Origin: Methanomassiliicoccales archaeon
GTDB taxonomy: Archaea > Thermoplasmatota > Thermoplasmata > Methanomassiliicoccales > UBA472
Assembly (NCBI GenBank): GCA_028682895.1
Contig: JAJRAK010000001.1
Span: forward strand, 1 to 64,000
Length of the DNA stretch: 64,000 nucleotides
Direction of reading: 5' to 3'
Shown in pieces: positions 659 to 62,566 of this stretch. The stretch's first letter is position 1; every line of letters begins with the position of its first letter. A program made the translations under genes and the position numbers. The notes below the pieces were generated by a model. The model made no database searches. It was not told where the DNA came from and saw only the letters and a program-made list of their open reading frames with translations.

Positions 659-1702
659 ATGGCAGGCGAGCTGGTGGGCGAGACGGTGGTCGTCTCCGAC
701 ATGGCCGAGGGCAGCCAGGTGTACAACAAGGGATACTATGGCTACCCCCGTCCCGGGGGCGGTCTGGAACTCGACCTGATCGAAGCGCTATACCTGCTGG
801 AATGCGAAAAGCTCAAGGTCTTCTCGGACGGAGAGGAATTGGACCATTCCTCCCTCTATCGCCGGACCGCCCGCTCCGTGGAGGAGCTGCAATCCCGCTA
901 CGTCGTGTACCGGGACCTGAGGCAGAGGGGCTTCATCGTAAAGCTCGACCAGGGCGATTTCAACTTCCGCGTCTATCCCCGCGGTTCAAACCCGCACAAC
1001 TCCCAGGCGAAGAACTGGGTCCTTGCCATCTCAGAACGGAACATATTCAACATCGCGGCCCTTCTCGTAAAGAGCGAGATGTCGCAAAGGACGCGCAAGG
1101 AGCTATTACTGGGCGTCGTGGACGAGGAGGGCGACATCACCTATTACACCGTTGAGGGCGCGGACCCCCACGGGATGACGGAATGGGCCCAGGTCAAGGC
1201 CGAGGGTGCGTTCCTCGATGATGTGGTCATCGTCCTTGGCGACGAGGCCGATGTCATCTACAGTAACGGTTACTTCGGAAAGAAGATCGGCCCGCTGTTA
1301 CAGCTGTCGCTCCTGGAAGCGGCCTTCCTGATGGAGAAGGGAGGGCTGGAGGTGCGCTCCATACGATCCGGGCAGAAGATGGGCCCTAAAGGGTTCATCA
1401 GTGGCGCCAAGCGCTCCCAGCCGGACTTCTCGCTGCGCATGAAGGCCTACGAGGACCTGCGCTCCCGGGGAATGGTGGTCAAGACCGGCTTCAAGTATGG
1501 CACGCACTTCCGCGTCTACGAGGGGAACCCGGCCACGCACCACTCCCGATACCTTGTGCATGTGGTGCCGGATGATTATTCGACCGTCTGGGCGGAGATA
1601 TCCCGCGCCGTCAGGCTGGCGCATGGAGTGAAGAAGGAGATACTGTTCGCCAGTTCCGGCGAGCAGCTGAACTATGTCAAACTCACGAGGGTCAGACCTT
1701 AG
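659..1702 (+). CDS. endA: tRNA-splicing endonuclease EndA (two-repeat type)
   Basis: This enzyme cuts bulge-helix-bulge introns out of precursor tRNA and rRNA. At 347 residues it has the tandem-repeat architecture seen in Archaeoglobus and Thermoplasma. The first N-domain/C-domain unit (about 1-175) is degenerate; the second (about 190-347) starts YSNGYFGKK and keeps the catalytic triad as Tyr287 (FRVY), His295 (HHSRYLV) and Lys325 (HGVKKE). The active enzyme would be a homodimer. The stop codon overlaps the convergent zinc-ribbon gene by 4 nt. The window also holds a likely substrate: the doubly interrupted tRNA-Lys at 45000-45132, both of whose introns have strict 3-4-3 BHB geometry. Confidence 0.92.
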   Translation: MAGELVGETVVVSDMAEGSQVYNKGYYGYPRPGGGLELDLIEALYLLECEKLKVFSDGEELDHSSLYRRTARSVEELQSRYVVYRDLRQRGFIVKLDQGDFNFRVYPRGSNPHNSQAKNWVLAISERNIFNIAALLVKSEMSQRTRKELLLGVVDEEGDITYYTVEGADPHGMTEWAQVKAEGAFLDDVVIVLGDEADVIYSNGYFGKKIGPLLQLSLLEAAFLMEKGGLEVRSIRSGQKMGPKGFISGAKRSQPDFSLRMKAYEDLRSRGMVVKTGFKYGTHFRVYEGNPATHHSRYLVHVVPDDYSTVWAEISRAVRLAHGVKKEILFASSGEQLNYVKLTRVRP

Positions 1703-32390: not shown

Positions 32391-33494
32391 TTACTTGATG
32401 AAGTCGACCGACATGCCCCGGGGCACTGCGGACTCCTTCGGACCAAGTATGTACTTGGACTTGACTCCAGTGACGACAACCATCACCCTCATCTTGTTCT
32501 CCAGCGTGGGATCGACGGAAGCACCCCAGATGATCCTTGCGTTCGGATTCACCTTGGCCTGGATCATCTCGGCCACCTTCTCCGCCTCGCTGACGGTCAT
32601 GTCCTCGCCGCCGACGACGTTGATCAGGACGCCGTTGGCGCCGCTGATGTCCACATCGATGAGCGGTGAGTTTATCGCTTCGTTGATGGCCTGATCGACC
32701 TTATCATCATCGGCGCCCTCGCCCATGCCGATCATGGCCACCCCGCCGCCCTTCATGATGGTCTTAAGGTCATTGAAGTCCAGGTTGACCAGCCCGGGAC
32801 GGGTGATGAGCTCGGTGATGCCTTTGATGGCGCGCATCAGTACCTCGTCCGCCACCTTGAAGGCGGCGTTGATGGAGTAGCGCGGCACGAGCTCCAGCAG
32901 CTTGTCGTTAGGTATGACTATGACGGTATCGGCAACGGACCTGAGCCGTTCCATGCCCCACTCGGCGTTCTCGGCGCGAATGGAACCCTCGGCCTTGAAC
33001 GGGGAGGTGACGATGGCGATGGTGAGCGCCCCCATCTCCTTGGCCATCTGTGCGATGTACGGCGCGGAACCGGTACCGGTACCTCCACCGAGACCGGCGG
33101 TGACGAAGACGATATCAGCGCCCATCAGCAGCTTGCGAAGGTCCTCCTCGGCCTCCCTGGCGGCTTCTTCTCCGACCTGCGGGAGCGCTCCTGCACCCAG
33201 TCCCTTCGTGCTCCGGCGGCCCAGCAGGATCTTCTTATGGGCCCTGGTGATCAGAAGGTGCTGCGCGTCGGTGTTGACCGCGTACAGCTCGGCGTCCTTT
33301 ATGTCGGTCGCGTACAGCCTGTCCACGGTGTTGGACCCTCCGCCGCCGCATCCGATGATCTTGATGTTGGTCTTAAGGCCCATCAAGATCTTTTCCAGTT
33401 CCTCGTCCTCGGCGGAGACCGCCCTGAACGCAGGCACACTGGTTTCGTTCGCCGGACCGGCACGGGACATGGCGTCGCTGATGAATGATTTCAT
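32391..33494 (-). CDS. ftsZ1: Cell division protein FtsZ, FtsZ1 type (copy A)
   Basis: A tubulin-like GTPase of 367 residues. The GTP-binding loops are [20 protein letters not shown] and the tubulin signature [12 protein letters not shown]; catalytic T7 loop is [11 protein letters not shown]. Residues such as [20 protein letters not shown]-type and [16 protein letters not shown] match the haloarchaeal FtsZ1 group. The C-terminus ends SVDFIK, a short tail possibly binding SepF. It is followed by secE-spt5-rpl11, a conserved archaeal order. Promoter TGTTTTAACC at 33571-33580. Confidence 0.93.
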
Positions 33495-34020: not shown

Positions 34021-35145
34021 TTACTTTATGAAGTCCAGATCGGCCTTCCTCATCTTGTCGGTGTCGTTAGGCGAGCCGAGTATCTGCTTGGACTTTACGC
34101 CGGCCACCACGACCATAACGCGGATGACCTTCTCCAGGGTGGGGTCCACGGCCGCCCCCCAGATGATCCTGGCGCTAGGGCTGACCTTCCGCTGCACCTC
34201 TTCGGCGATGAACTCCGCGTCGGATATGGTCATGTCCGGGCCGCCGATGACGTTGACCAGGACGCCGTTCGCCTCGCTTATGTCCACTTCCAGCAGGGGG
34301 GAGCTCAGCGCGCGGTCGATTGCCTCCTTTGCGCGGTCCTCTGCATGCCCATCGCTCTCGCCCAACCCTATCATGGCCACGCCGGCGCCCTTCATGATCG
34401 TGCGCACGTCGTTGAAGTCCAGGTTGACCAGTCCAGGCTTGGTTATGAGCTCTGAGATGCCCTTTATGGCCTTGGTCAGGATCTCGTCGGCCATCTTGAA
34501 GGCCTGGTTCAGGCCCAGTCGCGGATAGATCTCCAGCAACTTGTCGTTCGGTATGACGATGACGGTGTCCGCCGACTGTCTGAGGCGCTGCAGCCCCCAC
34601 TCGGCGTTCTCCATGCGCATCCTGCCCTCGCCCTTGAAGGGCGTGGTAGCGACGGCGATGGTCAACGCTCCCATCTCCTTGGCTATTCCAGCGACCACGC
34701 TGGCGGAACCGGTACCGGTCCCGCCGCCCATACCTGCGGTGACGAACACCAGGTGAGCGTCGACGGCGGCCTTGCGGATCTCCTCCTCGGCCTCCCTAGC
34801 TGCCTGCTCGCCTACCTGGGGCAGAGCGCCTGCGCCCAATCCCCTGGTGCTCCTGCGGCCCAGCAAGATCTTGTGCTGAGCACGGGTGGCCAGCAGATGC
34901 TGCGCGTCGGTGTTGCATGCATAGGTCTCCACACCAGAGATGTTCTCGTCGGCGATACGGTTGATGGTGTTGGAACCACCGCCCCCGCATCCGAAAATCT
35001 TGATGTTGGTCTTCAGTTTCTGTAAAAGCTCGATCAGCTCTGCATCTGTGGAATCCATCTGCTGGTATCCATAGTTGGGTGCGATCTCCATCTTAGCTGG
35101 AGCCACATCCTTCGCTAGAGCTTCCTCAACAAGTGATCTCATCAT
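34021..35145 (-). CDS. ftsZ1: Cell division protein FtsZ, FtsZ1 type (copy B)
   Basis: 374 residues from the ATG at 35145 (a second ATG at 35142; the frame opens at 35187). GTP-binding motifs [20 protein letters not shown] and [12 protein letters not shown] are intact, as are T7 loop [11 protein letters not shown] and [14 protein letters not shown]. The sequence is close to copy A, including [20 protein letters not shown]-like ATTTAATATAAA (about 35193-35207) drives it. The C-terminus ends ADLDFIK, the same type of tail as copy A. A tandem paralogue with an independent promoter. Confidence 0.92.
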
Positions 35146-35266
35146 CCATCCCTTCCATCGGCAACGGCCATAACTTGAGTTCTGCACCCTTATGACGTTT
35201 ATATTAAATATTCTTGCGCCCCAGTCTTACCAAAGGATAATAGGTGCCCGGCCTAATGATACAAGC

Positions 35267-37537: not shown

Positions 37538-38569
37538 ATGGGGTCGCGCTTCGAAGGACTGGATGAGCCAGACATAGAGCTGCACGAGCTCAAGATAGTG
37601 GTTGTCGGATGCGGAGGTGGTGGATGTAACAGCATACATCGTCTCAATAGCATCGGCCTAGATGCAGCCATGACCCTGGCCATCAACACCGACCAAAGAT
37701 CGTTGAAGGCCACCGATTGCCCGAACCGTCTGCTTTTAGGCCCTGAGTTCACGAAAGGGCTCGGTACCGGAGGCCGTCCCGACATAGGACAGGAATGCGC
37801 CCTGAACGCCGCCCCCATGCTCTCCAAGGTCTTCAAGGATGCTGACCTTACATTTATCATAACAGGGCTCGGAGGAGGTACTGGAACAGGGGCTTCCCCG
37901 GTAGTCGCCGACATAGCCCGCCGAAGCGGTTCGATGGTCATCTCCGTCGCCACCACACCTTTCAGCTTCGAGGGGAGCACCAGGCGGAACATTGCGATAA
38001 AGGGGCTGAAGAGATTGCGGGAGGCTTCGAACAGCTTGCTGGTCATCGACAACGACCACATGCTGCACATGGTGGAGAACCTCCCCGTGGACCAAGGTCT
38101 GGCAGTGATCGATCAGTTGATATCCGAGCTGATAAAGGGGGTGGTGGACATACTTACGGCACCATCGCTCATCAATCTGGACTTCGCCGACCTGAGGACC
38201 GTTATGGAAGAGGGTGGCGTTTCCACGATACTCTATGGCGAGAACGCCGACCCGGACGCGGTGGTGCGCGACGCGCTCAACAACCCGCTCCTCGATGTTG
38301 ACATCCGGGGAGGAACAGGGGCGCTGGTCCACATTACCGGCGGTTCGAACCTCACCCTGAAGCGGGCCAATCGCATCATCGCCAGCATCACCAAGATTTT
38401 GGACGAGGGCGCGAACGTCAAGTTCGGCGTGCGGGTGGACGAGGAGATGCAGGACACAATCAGGATGATAGCGATAGTGACCGGCATATCGGAGCTGCAC
38501 GGCGATCTCGCTCCCCCGATATCATCCGGGGACGACCTGGGGAAGGTTCTGGGCAAGTTCGGTCCTTGA
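37538..38569 (+). CDS. ftsZ2: Cell division protein FtsZ, FtsZ2 type
   Basis: A 343-residue FtsZ with AGGAG 8 nt before its ATG. GTP loops GCGGGGCNSIHRL and [13 protein letters not shown]7 loop NLDFADLRTVM. Features such as LLVIDNDHMLHMVENLPV, PSLINLDFADL and NPLLDVDIRGGTGALVHITGG match haloarchaeal FtsZ2, not the two FtsZ1 copies. It lacks a long acidic C-terminal tail. Operon with the CdrS-like gene; it converges on trmJ with a 1-nt gap. Confidence 0.93.
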   Translation: MGSRFEGLDEPDIELHELKIVVVGCGGGGCNSIHRLNSIGLDAAMTLAINTDQRSLKATDCPNRLLLGPEFTKGLGTGGRPDIGQECALNAAPMLSKVFKDADLTFIITGLGGGTGTGASPVVADIARRSGSMVISVATTPFSFEGSTRRNIAIKGLKRLREASNSLLVIDNDHMLHMVENLPVDQGLAVIDQLISELIKGVVDILTAPSLINLDFADLRTVMEEGGVSTILYGENADPDAVVRDALNNPLLDVDIRGGTGALVHITGGSNLTLKRANRIIASITKILDEGANVKFGVRVDEEMQDTIRMIAIVTGISELHGDLAPPISSGDDLGKVLGKFGP

Positions 38570-44999: not shown

Positions 45000-45132
45000 G
45001 GGCCCGTAGCTCAGCTAGGTTGGACCTTCGGCGACGTAGGTCCCTAGAGAGAGCATCTGGCTTTTAACCAGGTGGTCCGGGGTTCGAAAGGTACGCGGTA
45101 ATTCCGTGTATGCGGAAATCCCCGCGGGCCCG
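45000..45132 (+). tRNA. tRNA-Lys(UUU) with two introns
   Basis: Exons 45000-45020, 45050-45088 and 45119-45132 make a normal 74-nt tRNA: acceptor GGGCCCG/CGGGCCC, D-arm GCTC-AGCTAGGTA-GAGC, anticodon loop CTTTTAA (UUU), T-loop TTCGAAT. Intron 1 (45021-45049, 29 nt) is in the D-loop; intron 2 (45089-45118, 30 nt) is in the T-loop. Each forms a bulge-helix-bulge: CTAG/CTAG between bulges GTT and AGA, and TTCG/CGGA between AAA and AAT. CCA is not encoded. The anticodon loop is uninterrupted. Confidence 0.92.
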
Positions 45133-45199: not shown

Positions 45200-45253
45200 A
45201 ATGACACTTAGTGGAGGAATGCCCCGGTTTCTGCATGGTATGAGGTGATTCAG

Positions 45254-45520
45254 TTGGAGGAGTCCGTACCATTTAACGTATTGAGCCATAAGATGGTGCC
45301 TGTTCACGAACTCTTGAGCGATGAGGAGACGGATAAGGTCTTGAAGAAATTGAAGATCACCCGTGACCAACTCCCCAAGATCAAGGAGAACGACGCAGCT
45401 ATCAAGATGCTCGAAAAGGCCATGAACCAAGCAATACCTGAGAAGAGCGTAATCAGGATAATAAGGGACAGCGAGACCTCCGAGGAAGCGGTCGTCTATC
45501 GTCTGGTCATAAGAGGGTGA
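45254..45520 (+). CDS. rpoH: RNA polymerase subunit H
   Basis: 88 residues. An RPB5-C-like domain with [19 protein letters not shown] near the start, then KIKENDAAI and a short beta-strand end [13 protein letters not shown] at 45254 is the best start because GAGGTGA lies 5 nt upstream; a GTG at 45245 is inside that site. First gene of the RNAP operon; it overlaps rpoB by 4 nt. Confidence 0.92.
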
Positions 45521-56007: not shown

Positions 56008-56053
56008 CGGGGTCCGATATCAGTTGATAATCACCCCAGAGGAGATTCTACTG

Positions 56054-59000
56054 ATGGCAACGAAACAGGAGGGGTCCAGTCTCCCCACTGATAAGCAGCG
56101 CTCTCTCTCGTTGTCCAATTTCTCTCGGTCCCTAAAAGGTTCTTGGGTTGGCAGAAATTGGCAGACAGTGCTGATATTGGCGATGTTCGTGCTCCTGGCC
56201 CTATTTGTCAGGAGCTATTACGCATACTCCGTATCCGTTGATAACGATTACCTGCTGTCGGGAGGCTCCGACTCATACTACCATCTGAGGGTAATCAACT
56301 ACGTGGTTGATACTGGGGATCAACTGCTGTATGACAACATGCTGTATTATCCGACGGGCATGATGAACCCTCGACCTCCACTGTATGACTGGTCAGTGGC
56401 AGTCTCAGGTATGTTCGCTCAGTCGGTCACAGGATGTGACATCGACGATGCGATCGGCATGTCATTGGTGTTCTCCACCGCCATATGGGGAGCGTTAACT
56501 GTCATTCCGGTCTACCTCATCGGTAACGCCGCGTTCGGCAGGAAAGCAGGATTGCTGTCCGCCTTCCTGTTCGCCATCATGGCCGGGCACATCGAGCGCA
56601 GCGTACTGTCCAACGCAGACCATGACTCCATGGTGCTGTTCTTCGTCGTGTTCGTGTTCTACTTCCTGCTGCGTTCATTGCAGACCATCAACGGTACCAA
56701 TTGGGTCTCGAAGTGGAGGGACCGTAAAGACATATCATCCGGACTGAAAGGGTATCTGGGCACGAACCAGCTTTCGCTCGTATACGCTGCATTAGGCGGA
56801 TTGTGCATGGCGGCCGTTTCCATGATATGGACCGGTTATACATACCTCCTGATCATCATAGTCGTCTATCTGGGCGTGCAGCTGCTGGTGGACCGTTTCC
56901 GCAATGTCGACTCGATGGGTGTCACACTATCGGTCACTTTGCTTCTCGGCTTATCCTTCCTGCTCACGCTCCCAGTTTATCTGAACATGGAGATTTGGAC
57001 TACATGGTACGACGTGCCGCTCTACATCTTCCTGGTCGCTGCGATCATAGGCATCATGTTCACGGTCACCCGAAACTACCCGTGGACGCTGGTCCTGCCG
57101 GTGTTCGCCGTTATAGGCATAATTGCCGCTGTCGTTCTCTCGGTGGTCTATCCGACCCTATTAGAGGCAATCGCCAGCGGGCAGGGATACCTGGTCAAGA
57201 GCAAGATGTATTCCACTATCTCCGAGGCGCAGGCGCCGGAGTTCTCGACCTTGGCCATGTCATTCGGTATGGTCACGTTCTGGTTATCGCTCATCGGCGT
57301 AGGCTGGGCGGCGATCAAGATCCCGAAGAACCTCAGCCCCTACTTCATATTCGTAGTGGTCTGGTCCGCAGTGGCCATCTACATGGCATCTTCCGCGGCC
57401 AGGTTCCTGTTCAACGCCTCTCCCGCCTTCGCCATCACGGCAGGCTGGATACTGGCCTATGTCATCGACCGTCTAAACTTTAATGAGATGATCCAGAACC
57501 TGCGCGGTGACCACGGCGGCGTATGGAAGACCATACGTCACTCTGTGAAGCTGAAGCACGTGGTCGGCACGTTGTTCCTGGTGTTCATGGTGCTAACGCC
57601 GAACGTCTATTACGCTCTGGACGCGAGCATACCGTCGAACGTCAAGAACGAGTACGACCTGGAGATATACTCTGGCATGCCCGGCTTCCTTCAGGCGGCC
57701 GATTACGACACTGCTAATGGGAGCAGCTATTATCTAGGCGCTTTCAACTTCGGCGTGACCACGTCCGATGAGTATACGGCCGATGCATACGATTGGTTGT
57801 CCGAACAAGATGCGGACATCCTTGAAGAGACGGACCGCCCAGCATATCTGTCATGGTGGGACTACGGGTTCGAGGCCATCAACGAAGGCGGACACCCCGC
57901 TGTGGCCGATAACTTCCAGAACGGATACCAGTTCGTGGCCACATATCTCCTGACACAGACCGAGGAGGGTGCAGTGGCGTTGCTCATCACCCGATGCGCC
58001 GAGTCAGCCCTCACCGAGGACGGGACCACCCACACCCAGCTCGTGGCCGCTTTGGAATCGTATGGTGTGGATTCCGACAAACTGACCGACATCGTAGAGA
58101 ATCCCAGTGATTACATCGATGTCATCCTGTCCGATCCGGACACCTATGGTGAATACAGCGATGACCTTTCAAGGGCATGCGCCAAGTACATCGCGGCCAG
58201 GGAGTATCTCGAGGACACCTTGAGCATGGACCAGCTGACCGCCCTCTATAACGATGTGCGTGAGATAACCGGCTACGACATCGGTTACATATCGGTCGAC
58301 AGCCAGCTGTTCCCGTTCTCGGCTACGGACTCCAACATCTTCTATGCCGTCGCCAAGTTGGGCGACTACATCATGGACGACAACGGCATCCCGACCCAGT
58401 TCTACAACATCTTGGCCGTCGACTACTACGGCAACGAGATAGAGCTGGACGAGGTGACCTCGGACGACGTCATCGTGGATTACGCGATCTACTACACCGA
58501 GGCCTTCTACGACACCATGATCTACAAGTACCTCATGGGATACGGGCCGACCGATGTTGGTTACGATGATCTACAGAGCCTGCCCGGGATATCCGGCGAT
58601 CTGGAGGACTCATACTCCATGCAGTGCTGGAACATGACCAACTATCGCGTTGTGTACCGGACGGCCTATTACAACCCATACTCCAGCGATGACGTGGCCA
58701 ACCACACCGACGCATGGGTCGCAGTCTCCTACGAGGAAGCTGTATCGCTCTATAACAAGATCAGCGCCGGGACCATAACCGGCACCGTCGACCTTTCCTC
58801 GGCCAGCCTCGAGGCGGGCGTGGTCATAGTGCAATACTATGACGGCGCAATAGTGTCAGGTACGGCCACGGACGGGGACGGCAATCCCATAGCTGATGCC
58901 TGGGTGACCATATACGACGAGTACGGTATCCCGCATCAGGTCACACAGACCGATTCCGACGGCTATTATACGCTGCTGGCGCCTTTCGGCAACTGCACCG

Positions 59001-62000
59001 TGGTCTTCTCCTATGGAGACCTGGACTCTCTCACGCTGTCCGGTACGGAGCTCTACTCCGAGGTCATCTACGTGACATATGACCAGGCAATGCGCGAGGA
59101 GGTCGATTCAGACAAGGATGGTCAGCTGGACTATTACATCGACCTTGACGTCATCATCACCGTCGGCACCCTGGACGGGAACGTCTATATCGATATCGAC
59201 GGTGACGAGGCGTACACCTCGGACACCGATGAGGCGCTCGCAGGGGCGATCGTGACTTTCGAGAACGAGACGACCGGGTACAGCATCTCGACCGTCACCG
59301 ACTCCGATGGCTATTACGTGCTAGATGGCGTCAACCCCATGGGAGGCAACCTATCCGTGGAGTATGAAGGTCATTACTTCGGCAGCGAGGCAGCGACCTC
59401 CGAGCTGGATACCACCACGACCACCGACCTCATCTGTGAGCCGGCATCGGTCAGCGGGACAATAACCCTGGAGGACGGCACGGTCGCCGATGAGGTCACG
59501 ATATACCTGCTCGACCAGGCCAATAACGAGATATCGGAGACGACCACCGACACCTCTGGAGAGTACTCCTTCGAAGGTCTGCTCCCGGGAAATTACACCG
59601 TCCAGACGGACGATGGCACGGTATTTGTCGATTCCGTCGTGCAACTGGACGCGGGCGATGAGACCGACCTTGATCTGGTAATGTACGAGTCCATGCGCCT
59701 CTCTGGCACCGTGACCTACGACGGTGAGTACGTGGCGAACGCATTGATTGGCATAACCACTGATTATGGAACAACATGGGTCATGAGCGACTCCCGCGGA
59801 AGATACTCCGTGGTCGTTCCCCAAGGTGACATATCCTTCTACGCCACGGCCACCGTCGATGGCGTGGAGACAGTGTTCTTCACGGTGATATCGGCCACCG
59901 ACAGCAGGACATTGAACGTCCAGCTCAGTGATGGTGTGGTGCTGACCGGCACGGTGAAGTCCGGTACCAGCGTATCCAGCAACGCCACCGTATATATTCA
60001 GTCGCGCAACACCGACGCCATATACACTGCTGTTACAAATTCCACCGGGGTCTTCCGTGTGGTGCTGCCGGCCGACCTGTACTTCGTGTACATATACGAT
60101 GACACGCGCTCTTACTGGGGAGACGTATACTTCAGCGATTCGACGGCCATGACCTTCAATCTGGTCAGCTCATACACGGTCTACGGTTCCGCCTGGTATG
60201 ACGCTGATGGGGACGGGGCTACCGGCTCCGGGGAATATCTGAACGGTGTGCTGGTGACCATAAGTGACAACAGCGGCCGTTCGGTGACCATCAGCACCGA
60301 CTCCTCGGGTGACTACTCCTTCCTTCTGGTCTCAGGCAAGTCATATACCCTGACCGCGACCAAGGACGGATACGATACAATAACCAAGACATACTCATCG
60401 CTCGATACCAGTGTCAACACGGACCTGGAGATGATTGCTGAGGAGGTGACGGTCACCGGGACAACATCCAACGGGCTCTCGGGAATGACCGTAAGCTTCA
60501 CCGCTGTGGACGACACCGCCGCCATCACTAAGACGGTCGTCACCACCACCGGAGGCGCGTTCACCGTCAAGCTCTCACCGGGCGATTACACAGTGACCGT
60601 TGATCAGAACGTCACCACCGGGAGCGCCTTGGTGAAATACCAGACGCTGAGCGACATCGATCTGACCATCTCCGTTGGCGAGGAGGTCGACGAGATGAGC
60701 ATAGATGTGGTGGTGAGATATTTGGTCAGCGGAACGGTCAGCCCCGCCGGCACCATAACCATGGTGTTCGATGGGACCGATACGGAGACACTGACAGTAT
60801 CCAGCACCTATTCCGTGTATCTGCAGGAAGGGACATACTCCCTTTACGTCAAGGTAGTGACCGGTACCCTGCGCTATGCCGACCTGTCCCAGGTGGATGT
60901 GAGCGGAGCGATGTCACTTGACGTATCTGCGGCATCTGCAGTGCAGACCATAATCACCGCCGAGTTCCCTGACACAGTACTGGAGTCCGTGAACTTGTCC
61001 ATCGAGAGCGACGGTGCCTATTACAACGTCACCACCTCGTCCGCTGGACTGACATCGGTATATCTGCCTGCTGGAACGTACAATGCCTCGATAGTCCATT
61101 ATACAACAGCTACGATCGACACGTTGGAAAAGTACGTGGTATACACAGGCAACTACACCTTCACCGTGGCCTCCACCATCAAGAGCATCGTAATATCGCT
61201 CGATCGGGCACTGGACAACGCCACCGTGCAGGGTACGATATACAGTTCCGGCACGGCCACCCCGTCCACCCTGGTGTTCCAGGCGGTATCCGAGACGGCC
61301 ATCGACCTGACGGTCGATGTCTCCACCGGGATGTACTCTGTGGAACTGGCCCCGGGCAACTATACCGTCTACGCGCTTAGCTCGGACAAGACCAAGGTCT
61401 ACCTGGGTATATTGGTGATCGAGGACGCTGGGACGTACTATGACAACATAACCCTGGTCCAGGCGTACCGTCTGTCCGGTTCGACATACGCCGACGATGA
61501 AGGCGTCAGCGCCTCCATCTCTATCAGCGGGGACGATGTGGAATATTATAATATCACGAGCAGCGGCAGCGGAAAGTATAATGTTTACCTGCCCGCTGGA
61601 ACGTACACCTTGGCGGCCGAGGCCCAGCTGGTCGAGGCAAGTCTCAATACGACATATTCCGCTGAGGTCAGCGTCGAGGTCGAGGCGAGCACCAGCAAGG
61701 GAATATCTCTAGAGAAGGAGACCACGCTGGGGGTCGAGGTCGCATGGGACGACGGTCAGCAGACATGGCTTAGCGCGAACGAGACCGCTGTCTATACCAT
61801 CCGGATAACCAACCAGGGCAACGTGGAGGACACCTACACCATAACTGCCTCCGGCACTGACTGGACGGTCGAGCTTTCGGAGAGCGAGGTGACCATCGGC
61901 TACGGTAGTGAGTACACCAAGACCGTGACCGTCTACATCACTGCGAGCAGCTCAACGCTGGTGGACCACAGCACGGTAACAGTGACGGTCACATCCACCA

Positions 62001-62566
62001 CCGACACCACGATCACTGACTATGTCAACCTGGACGCTAACGTTACCGCGTCCTACTCTGTATCCATGACCTATTCCGATGGAGAGGACACCGACGGCAC
62101 CAGCTACGTTTACAACCTCGAGATCTCCAACGATGGTAATGCCGACGACACCTACACCGTGACCATCGGCAACCTGGAAGAGCTCGAGGCTCTGGGCTGG
62201 GAGGTCAAACTGGTCAATGATGATGGGGACCTGGTGGACAGCCTGAGCATCGATGTTGAGGCGGCCGATTCCGGTGAGTTCCAAATATCATTGGTATCTC
62301 TCAGGGACAACCCCGACACCACCATCAGCGTGCTGCTGGTGGCCGAGTCCGAAGGGGACGAGTACGTCGTTGCCACCATGGAGATGGAGCCTGAGTTCGC
62401 CGGCATAAGCGTGGACGACGGGCTGTCGATCACCGGCGATGATATAGCGAACAGCTCACCAGAGATCGATGATTATACCATCGTTCTGATGTGTGTGATG
62501 TTGACCTTCGTGGCCGTGCTTCTAGCCGTCACGATCAAGAAGGGGGTGTTCTCACGAAGAAAGTGA
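56054..62566 (+). CDS. aglB: Giant oligosaccharyltransferase AglB with beta-sandwich stalk
   Basis: The catalytic subunit of archaeal N-glycosylation, moving glycan from dolichol phosphate to Asn-x-Ser/Thr. From the ATG at 56054 (GGAG at -9) it is 2170 residues, more than double the usual size. The N-terminal ~530 residues are multi-span membrane, with catalytic Asp73 (SGGSDSYYHLR) and Asp189/Asp191 (ADHDS). WWDYG lies at 601-605. A family-typical beta domain begins near 930. From about 1038 to 1890 about ten 80-90-residue carboxypeptidase-regulatory/CNA-B-like units follow, then two NEW3-like domains (about 1890-2130) and a C-terminal membrane anchor (about 2143-2165, then KKGVFSRRK). Many sequons in the stalk. 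Confidence 0.93.
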   Translation: MATKQEGSSLPTDKQRSLSLSNFSRSLKGSWVGRNWQTVLILAMFVLLALFVRSYYAYSVSVDNDYLLSGGSDSYYHLRVINYVVDTGDQLLYDNMLYYPTGMMNPRPPLYDWSVAVSGMFAQSVTGCDIDDAIGMSLVFSTAIWGALTVIPVYLIGNAAFGRKAGLLSAFLFAIMAGHIERSVLSNADHDSMVLFFVVFVFYFLLRSLQTINGTNWVSKWRDRKDISSGLKGYLGTNQLSLVYAALGGLCMAAVSMIWTGYTYLLIIIVVYLGVQLLVDRFRNVDSMGVTLSVTLLLGLSFLLTLPVYLNMEIWTTWYDVPLYIFLVAAIIGIMFTVTRNYPWTLVLPVFAVIGIIAAVVLSVVYPTLLEAIASGQGYLVKSKMYSTISEAQAPEFSTLAMSFGMVTFWLSLIGVGWAAIKIPKNLSPYFIFVVVWSAVAIYMASSAARFLFNASPAFAITAGWILAYVIDRLNFNEMIQNLRGDHGGVWKTIRHSVKLKHVVGTLFLVFMVLTPNVYYALDASIPSNVKNEYDLEIYSGMPGFLQAADYDTANGSSYYLGAFNFGVTTSDEYTADAYDWLSEQDADILEETDRPAYLSWWDYGFEAINEGGHPAVADNFQNGYQFVATYLLTQTEEGAVALLITRCAESALTEDGTTHTQLVAALESYGVDSDKLTDIVENPSDYIDVILSDPDTYGEYSDDLSRACAKYIAAREYLEDTLSMDQLTALYNDVREITGYDIGYISVDSQLFPFSATDSNIFYAVAKLGDYIMDDNGIPTQFYNILAVDYYGNEIELDEVTSDDVIVDYAIYYTEAFYDTMIYKYLMGYGPTDVGYDDLQSLPGISGDLEDSYSMQCWNMTNYRVVYRTAYYNPYSSDDVANHTDAWVAVSYEEAVSLYNKISAGTITGTVDLSSASLEAGVVIVQYYDGAIVSGTATDGDGNPIADAWVTIYDEYGIPHQVTQTDSDGYYTLLAPFGNCTVVFSYGDLDSLTLSGTELYSEVIYVTYDQAMREEVDSDKDGQLDYYIDLDVIITVGTLDGNVYIDIDGDEAYTSDTDEALAGAIVTFENETTGYSISTVTDSDGYYVLDGVNPMGGNLSVEYEGHYFGSEAATSELDTTTTTDLICEPASVSGTITLEDGTVADEVTIYLLDQANNEISETTTDTSGEYSFEGLLPGNYTVQTDDGTVFVDSVVQLDAGDETDLDLVMYESMRLSGTVTYDGEYVANALIGITTDYGTTWVMSDSRGRYSVVVPQGDISFYATATVDGVETVFFTVISATDSRTLNVQLSDGVVLTGTVKSGTSVSSNATVYIQSRNTDAIYTAVTNSTGVFRVVLPADLYFVYIYDDTRSYWGDVYFSDSTAMTFNLVSSYTVYGSAWYDADGDGATGSGEYLNGVLVTISDNSGRSVTISTDSSGDYSFLLVSGKSYTLTATKDGYDTITKTYSSLDTSVNTDLEMIAEEVTVTGTTSNGLSGMTVSFTAVDDTAAITKTVVTTTGGAFTVKLSPGDYTVTVDQNVTTGSALVKYQTLSDIDLTISVGEEVDEMSIDVVVRYLVSGTVSPAGTITMVFDGTDTETLTVSSTYSVYLQEGTYSLYVKVVTGTLRYADLSQVDVSGAMSLDVSAASAVQTIITAEFPDTVLESVNLSIESDGAYYNVTTSSAGLTSVYLPAGTYNASIVHYTTATIDTLEKYVVYTGNYTFTVASTIKSIVISLDRALDNATVQGTIYSSGTATPSTLVFQAVSETAIDLTVDVSTGMYSVELAPGNYTVYALSSDKTKVYLGILVIEDAGTYYDNITLVQAYRLSGSTYADDEGVSASISISGDDVEYYNITSSGSGKYNVYLPAGTYTLAAEAQLVEASLNTTYSAEVSVEVEASTSKGISLEKETTLGVEVAWDDGQQTWLSANETAVYTIRITNQGNVEDTYTITASGTDWTVELSESEVTIGYGSEYTKTVTVYITASSSTLVDHSTVTVTVTSTTDTTITDYVNLDANVTASYSVSMTYSDGEDTDGTSYVYNLEISNDGNADDTYTVTIGNLEELEALGWEVKLVNDDGDLVDSLSIDVEAADSGEFQISLVSLRDNPDTTISVLLVAESEGDEYVVATMEMEPEFAGISVDDGLSITGDDIANSSPEIDDYTIVLMCVMLTFVAVLLAVTIKKGVFSRRK

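Follow-up and report, generated by a model that had tools for sequence, protein, structure and literature searches.

The 64,000-nt stretch of DNA analysed here (the window), from a Methanomassiliicoccales archaeon, most probably carries a tRNA-Lys(UUU) gene interrupted by two introns, one in the D loop and one in the T loop, which would be cut out by the endonuclease EndA and whose exons would be joined by RtcB. We give this reading, which includes the proposal that the introns are ancient and were lost in the Methanomethylophilaceae, a probability of about 90%. The intron positions, their homology and covariation, the finding of no other UUU gene and a single loop-less alpha'2 EndA are read from the sequences; from these we infer that splicing takes place, with EndA as its agent, and at which exact cut sites and in what order it would proceed. 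The introns themselves are of a known kind; new, as far as our literature search shows, are the lineage, the depth of their spread through a class and the unexpected enzyme.

Structure and locus of the interrupted gene

The precursor gene comprises 133 nt (45000..45132, + strand) and lies directly upstream of rpoH, encoding an Rpb5-like subunit of RNA polymerase (45245..45520, +), which was used as a synteny marker; the same gene order is kept in relatives. Exon 1 (tRNA positions 1-20; 45000..45020, +) is followed by a 29-nt intron in the D loop at position 20/21 (45021..45049, +). Exon 2 (positions 21-59; 45050..45088, +) contains the intact anticodon loop CTTTTAA, with the anticodon UUU at 45063-45065, and is separated from exon 3 (positions 60-73; 45119..45132, +) by a 30-nt intron in the T loop at position 59/60 (45089..45118, +). 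Removal of 45021-45049 and 45089-45118 leaves a standard tRNA of 74 nt, GGGCCCGTAGCTCAGCTAGGTAGAGCATCTGGCTTTTAACCAGGTGGTCCGGGGTTCGAATCCCCGCGGGCCCG, which reads as tRNA-Lys(ttt); the coordinates, the intron boundaries and the 74-nt product of the original prediction were thus exact. The source genome (1.66 Mb in 63 contigs, 91% complete) has its nearest named relatives among the Methanomassiliicoccales (rpoB 90-92% identical).

Intron states among relatives

We parsed 108 tRNA-Lys(UUU) genes from relatives, some of whose genomes are present in two collections; the distinct sequences among them amount to 32 mature tRNAs, 60 D introns and 52 T introns. Twenty genes, those of the Methanomethylophilaceae, had no intron, one had the D intron only, 51 had the D and T introns, five combined the D intron with one in the anticodon loop, and 31 carried all three. 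After intron removal 107 of the 108 genes were exactly 74 nt long and the remaining one 73 nt. Two introns outside the anticodon loop, as originally predicted, are real, since the same positions at the same locus are interrupted in dozens of relatives, and the intronless orthologues at this locus have empty sites exactly where the introns sit elsewhere. The exons are constant across the class and the introns diverge. Together, the shared positions and locus, the constant exons, the divergent but covarying introns and the empty sites of the intronless orthologues argue that this arrangement is not due to chance.

A search with the D-intron pattern found matches in 32 of 121 genomes of the class, belonging to 15 of 54 genera, once per genome; neither the reversed control nor the sampled members of the Methanomethylophilaceae-like family f2 gave a match. 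The feature is not peculiar to the source genome, being spread through the Methanomassiliicoccales and other Thermoplasmata, and it also occurs in a three-intron version.

Splice junctions and folding

The central helix of the D motif pairs the exon strand CTAG (45015..45018, +) with the intron sequence CTAG (45044-45047), and the bulges on the cut strand are GTT (45019-45021) and AGA (45048-45050). The T motif pairs the exon strand TTCG (45083..45086, +) with the intron sequence CGGA (45113-45116), with AAA (45087-45089) and AAT (45117-45119) as cut-strand bulges. Across the 32 distinct two-intron genes these motifs take the forms GCTC-AG-CTAG-[GTN]-hairpin-CTRG-[ARA]-GAGC and GGGG-TTCG-[AAN]-hairpin-(N)-CGRA-[ANT]-CCCC. 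Each junction had been described as a strict bulge-helix-bulge, which is wrong: of the two sites of each intron, one is clean and the other relaxed. In the D intron the 5' site is clean and the 3' site forms a 3x2 internal loop, with the exon bases A14 and G15 opposite; in the T intron the 3' site is clean and the 5' site usually has one opposing base (a 3x1 loop), which in the window is an unpaired G facing a G. A few relatives have a T intron nearer to the strict form. Both the helix and the cut-strand loops of 3 nt are present, short of the strict arrangement of a 4-bp helix between two 3-nt bulges, and the introns belong to the wider family of archaeal EndA/BHB tRNA introns, in the relaxed forms hBH and HBh'.

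In the proposed sequence of events, each intron of the precursor would fold into a hairpin beside the 4-bp exon-intron helix, homodimeric EndA would cut each 3-nt bulge after its second base, and RtcB would ligate the exons to give a normal 74-nt tRNA. The hairpin predicted for each intron folds well and its pairing is conserved by covariation: 89.8% of the cells were paired, and 88 double-sided changes were observed, where shuffles gave 31.6 and slid controls 12-26. Folding was 3.7 SD better than in shuffles for the unspliced transcript and 4.0 SD for the spliced one. The minimum-energy fold lacks the weak TTCG/CGGA helix and has the D helix shifted by one base, which counts against the model. 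The consensus of the T loop already contains the part of the T motif that lies in the exon, and this may explain the recurrence of position 59/60, which is also interrupted in tRNA-Arg(UCU).

The ends of the introns are also kept, all 88 D introns ending in CTRG plus 2 nt and 79 of the 82 T introns in CGRA plus 2 nt, the other three having been misread because the fetched stretch was too short. The persistence of these motifs speaks against a reading in which both insertions are retained and make the D and T loops of the mature tRNA larger; such loops would disturb the contact between the D loop and the T loop, and the orthologues lack exactly these segments, so that we regard retention as very improbable.

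Need for the gene and its detection

A tRNA search with Rfam and a home-made model of the 3' half, which gives an incomplete census, found no second tRNA-Lys(UUU) gene in the source genome or in the near-complete intron-bearing relatives searched. As the source genome is 91% complete, one of its gaps might still hold such a gene. An uninterrupted UUU gene elsewhere, combined with a lack of mature reads from this locus, had been named as a finding that would undo the original prediction; no such gene turned up in the source genome or in those of the relatives, where the only other lysine tRNA found was CUU, without introns. A tRNA with the anticodon CUU would not be expected to decode AAA, a codon that accounts for 56 of the 535 lysine codons in 19 genes of the window and is present in 18 of them.

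On the window, ARAGORN and Rfam reported a tRNA-Gly only, leaving the Lys gene unreported. When given spliced genes, ARAGORN called Lys(ttt) for all 108, including all 88 that bear introns; when given the unspliced genes, it did so for the 20 intronless ones only, plus the D-only gene if introns were allowed, and for none of the 87 multi-intron genes. tRNAscan-SE may detect some of these genes. In many published genomes, common finders (ARAGORN, Rfam tRNA) overlook an essential tRNA. That the gene escapes standard finders would also suit a pseudogene whose function is taken over by a UUU gene elsewhere; but the searches described above found no such gene, and across a class the exons have been kept and the introns have diverged, which makes a pseudogene extremely unlikely.

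EndA and RtcB

The EndA of the window (659..1702, +) combines two N and two C domains within a single chain, with the triad (Y287, H295, and K325 or K326) in the second repeat only. Both the domain order and the placement of the triad agree with the two-repeat (alpha'2) type assigned to it originally. It is encoded by a single gene, no second subunit was found in the genome, and, as no other EndA was found there either, the expectation that this one enzyme would have to cut both introns holds. One RtcB is present in the genome. We consider removal by other means than EndA, such as self-splicing, most improbable: a length of about 30 nt is well below that of group I or group II introns, the central-helix motif suits EndA, and both EndA and RtcB are present.

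The EndA of the window has no CSL/ASL insertion; at the corresponding site it has the loop GKKIG from residue 207, of the same length as in the narrow A. fulgidus enzyme, in place of the insert, with a Lys beside the active site, that goes with broad specificity in ARMAN (ASL, 11 residues) and crenarchaeal (CSL, 15-18 residues) enzymes. The same type of EndA, also without the loop, was found in relatives within the order and in eight intron-bearing genomes from other families. According to the published rule, relaxed motifs are poor substrates for alpha'2 enzymes (PMC6379350, PMC4033280). Reviews assign a narrow specificity to the alpha4 and alpha'2 types and restrict efficient removal of relaxed introns to those (alpha-beta)2 and epsilon2 enzymes that bear the loop (PMC6379350, PMC12397907). 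One group has reported that archaeal endonucleases also cut bulge-helix-loop motifs (PMC8707768), which would fit the half-relaxed sites found here. We lean slightly towards the view that the homodimeric EndA of the Thermoplasmata may have a broad specificity without a CSL-, ASL- or ESL-type loop and cut half-relaxed junctions in the D and T loops; the loop rule would then fail for much of a class whose tRNA-Lys(UUU) common searches overlook.

Alternatively, the introns could be real and the alpha'2 EndA could need help at the relaxed sites, be it through an accessory factor, an altered fold or guidance by the remaining tRNA. The missing CSL/ASL loop is in line with such help, as is the report that, in full-length pre-tRNA, the alpha'2 enzyme of A. 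fulgidus cuts at 37/38 where the site is a bulge-helix-loop (PMC6379350). However, introns in both loops disturb the elbow that could serve as a ruler, and the T introns of a few relatives, being nearer to the strict form, also tell against a helper, which we hold to be a possible but rather doubtful explanation.

Three candidate features were rejected. In an alignment with solved enzymes, the segment SGQKMGPKG in the second repeat, considered as a CSL-like specificity loop, proved to be shared by M. kandleri and A. pernix and to lie away from the position of the CSL; as a marker of intron-bearing lineages, the basic residues of the short loop were inconsistent across the EndA alignment; and a strict link of EndA to the absence of non-canonical introns does not stand, as in one genome with an intronless tRNA-Lys (G030) an intron interrupts the T loop of tRNA-Arg(UCU). 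Beside the catalytic lysine, the EndA of family f2, whose tRNA-Lys is intronless, reads RTVRLSGGVKK, as against RAVRLAHGVKK in other families.

Evolutionary history

On an unrooted rpoB tree one change each suffices for the distribution of the D intron and that of the anticodon intron, against three for that of the T intron. The genomes with an intronless gene form a single clade (100/100), nested among intron-bearing lineages; taken together, these results favour an old age of the D and T introns and their later loss. The direction of change is taken from the introns' being the more widely spread state. The D and T introns were probably present in the common ancestor of the Methanomassiliicoccales and neighbouring Thermoplasmata and lost in the Methanomethylophilaceae; for the anticodon intron, either gain or loss could account for the pattern.

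Comparison with known systems

The intron-containing tRNAs of euryarchaea have been described as having a single canonical intron (PMC4090602). The closest likeness is with the Thermoproteales, where up to three introns per tRNA, BHB-like junctions and introns at positions 20/21 and 59/60 are known (PMC4090602); a tRNA with three introns occurs in the Thermoproteales and, in the case of tRNA-Lys(UUU), in some Thermoplasmata. The Thermoproteales, however, have a heterotetrameric EndA with a Crenarchaea-specific loop, in contrast to the loop-less alpha'2 enzyme found here, and our case concerns a euryarchaeal class, with one tRNA locus conserved through much of it. Korarchaeum cryptofilum also has an alpha2-type EndA alongside non-canonical introns, being the only alpha2 archaeon reported to have them (PMC4033280), although its EndA reportedly possesses the specific loop, which the enzymes studied here lack. 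Methanothermobacter thermautotrophicus and Methanopyrus kandleri are euryarchaea with more than one intron per tRNA (PMC4033280), a likeness of intron number, and Methanopyrus differs in having an (alpha-beta)2 EndA (PMC6379350). The alpha'2 enzymes of A. fulgidus and Thermoplasma acidophilum have the same domain order and triad, and that of A. fulgidus the same short loop, and are described as narrow in specificity (PMC6379350). Our search of the open literature, to which most subscription papers do not belong, found no paper on tRNA introns in the Thermoplasmata. Orthologues with zero, one, two and three introns at one locus, together with one type of enzyme, offer a natural test of how far EndA architecture and intron diversity are linked, as is generally accepted.

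A report of 2014 on Methanomassiliicoccus luminyensis found no tRNA-Lys at all (PMC4153887). Introns in the UUU gene may explain this in part; the CUU gene, uninterrupted in relatives, needs another reason.

Other tRNA introns and further observations

Two strict D-loop introns were found in other tRNA genes (source genome, loci L015 and L030): that of tRNA-Thr(CGU) reads GCTC-AGTG-[GTA]-GCCCC..GGGGC-CACT-[AAA]-GAGC, and that of tRNA-Ala(CGC) reads GATC-AGCG-[GAT]-hairpin-CGCT-[AAA]-GATC. A T-loop intron at 59/60 is present in tRNA-Arg(UCU) at L217 (genome G015, together with an anticodon intron) and at L219 (G030, from a family with intronless tRNA-Lys). In tRNA-Leu(CAA) the D stem and the anticodon stem are separated, near 26/27, by an intron of about 23 nt, at L229 (contig C37 of the source genome) and L233 (genome G005). 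Loci L211, L218, L220 and L228 are probably tRNA-Trp genes, with a long intron that resembles a nested box C/D RNA.

Elsewhere in the window, a reading of motifs points to three FtsZ-like proteins within about 6 kb (32391-33494, 34021-35187 and 37538-38569), and 56024-62566 appears, by reading, to encode a 2180-aa oligosaccharyltransferase-like protein fused to many repeated extracellular domains.
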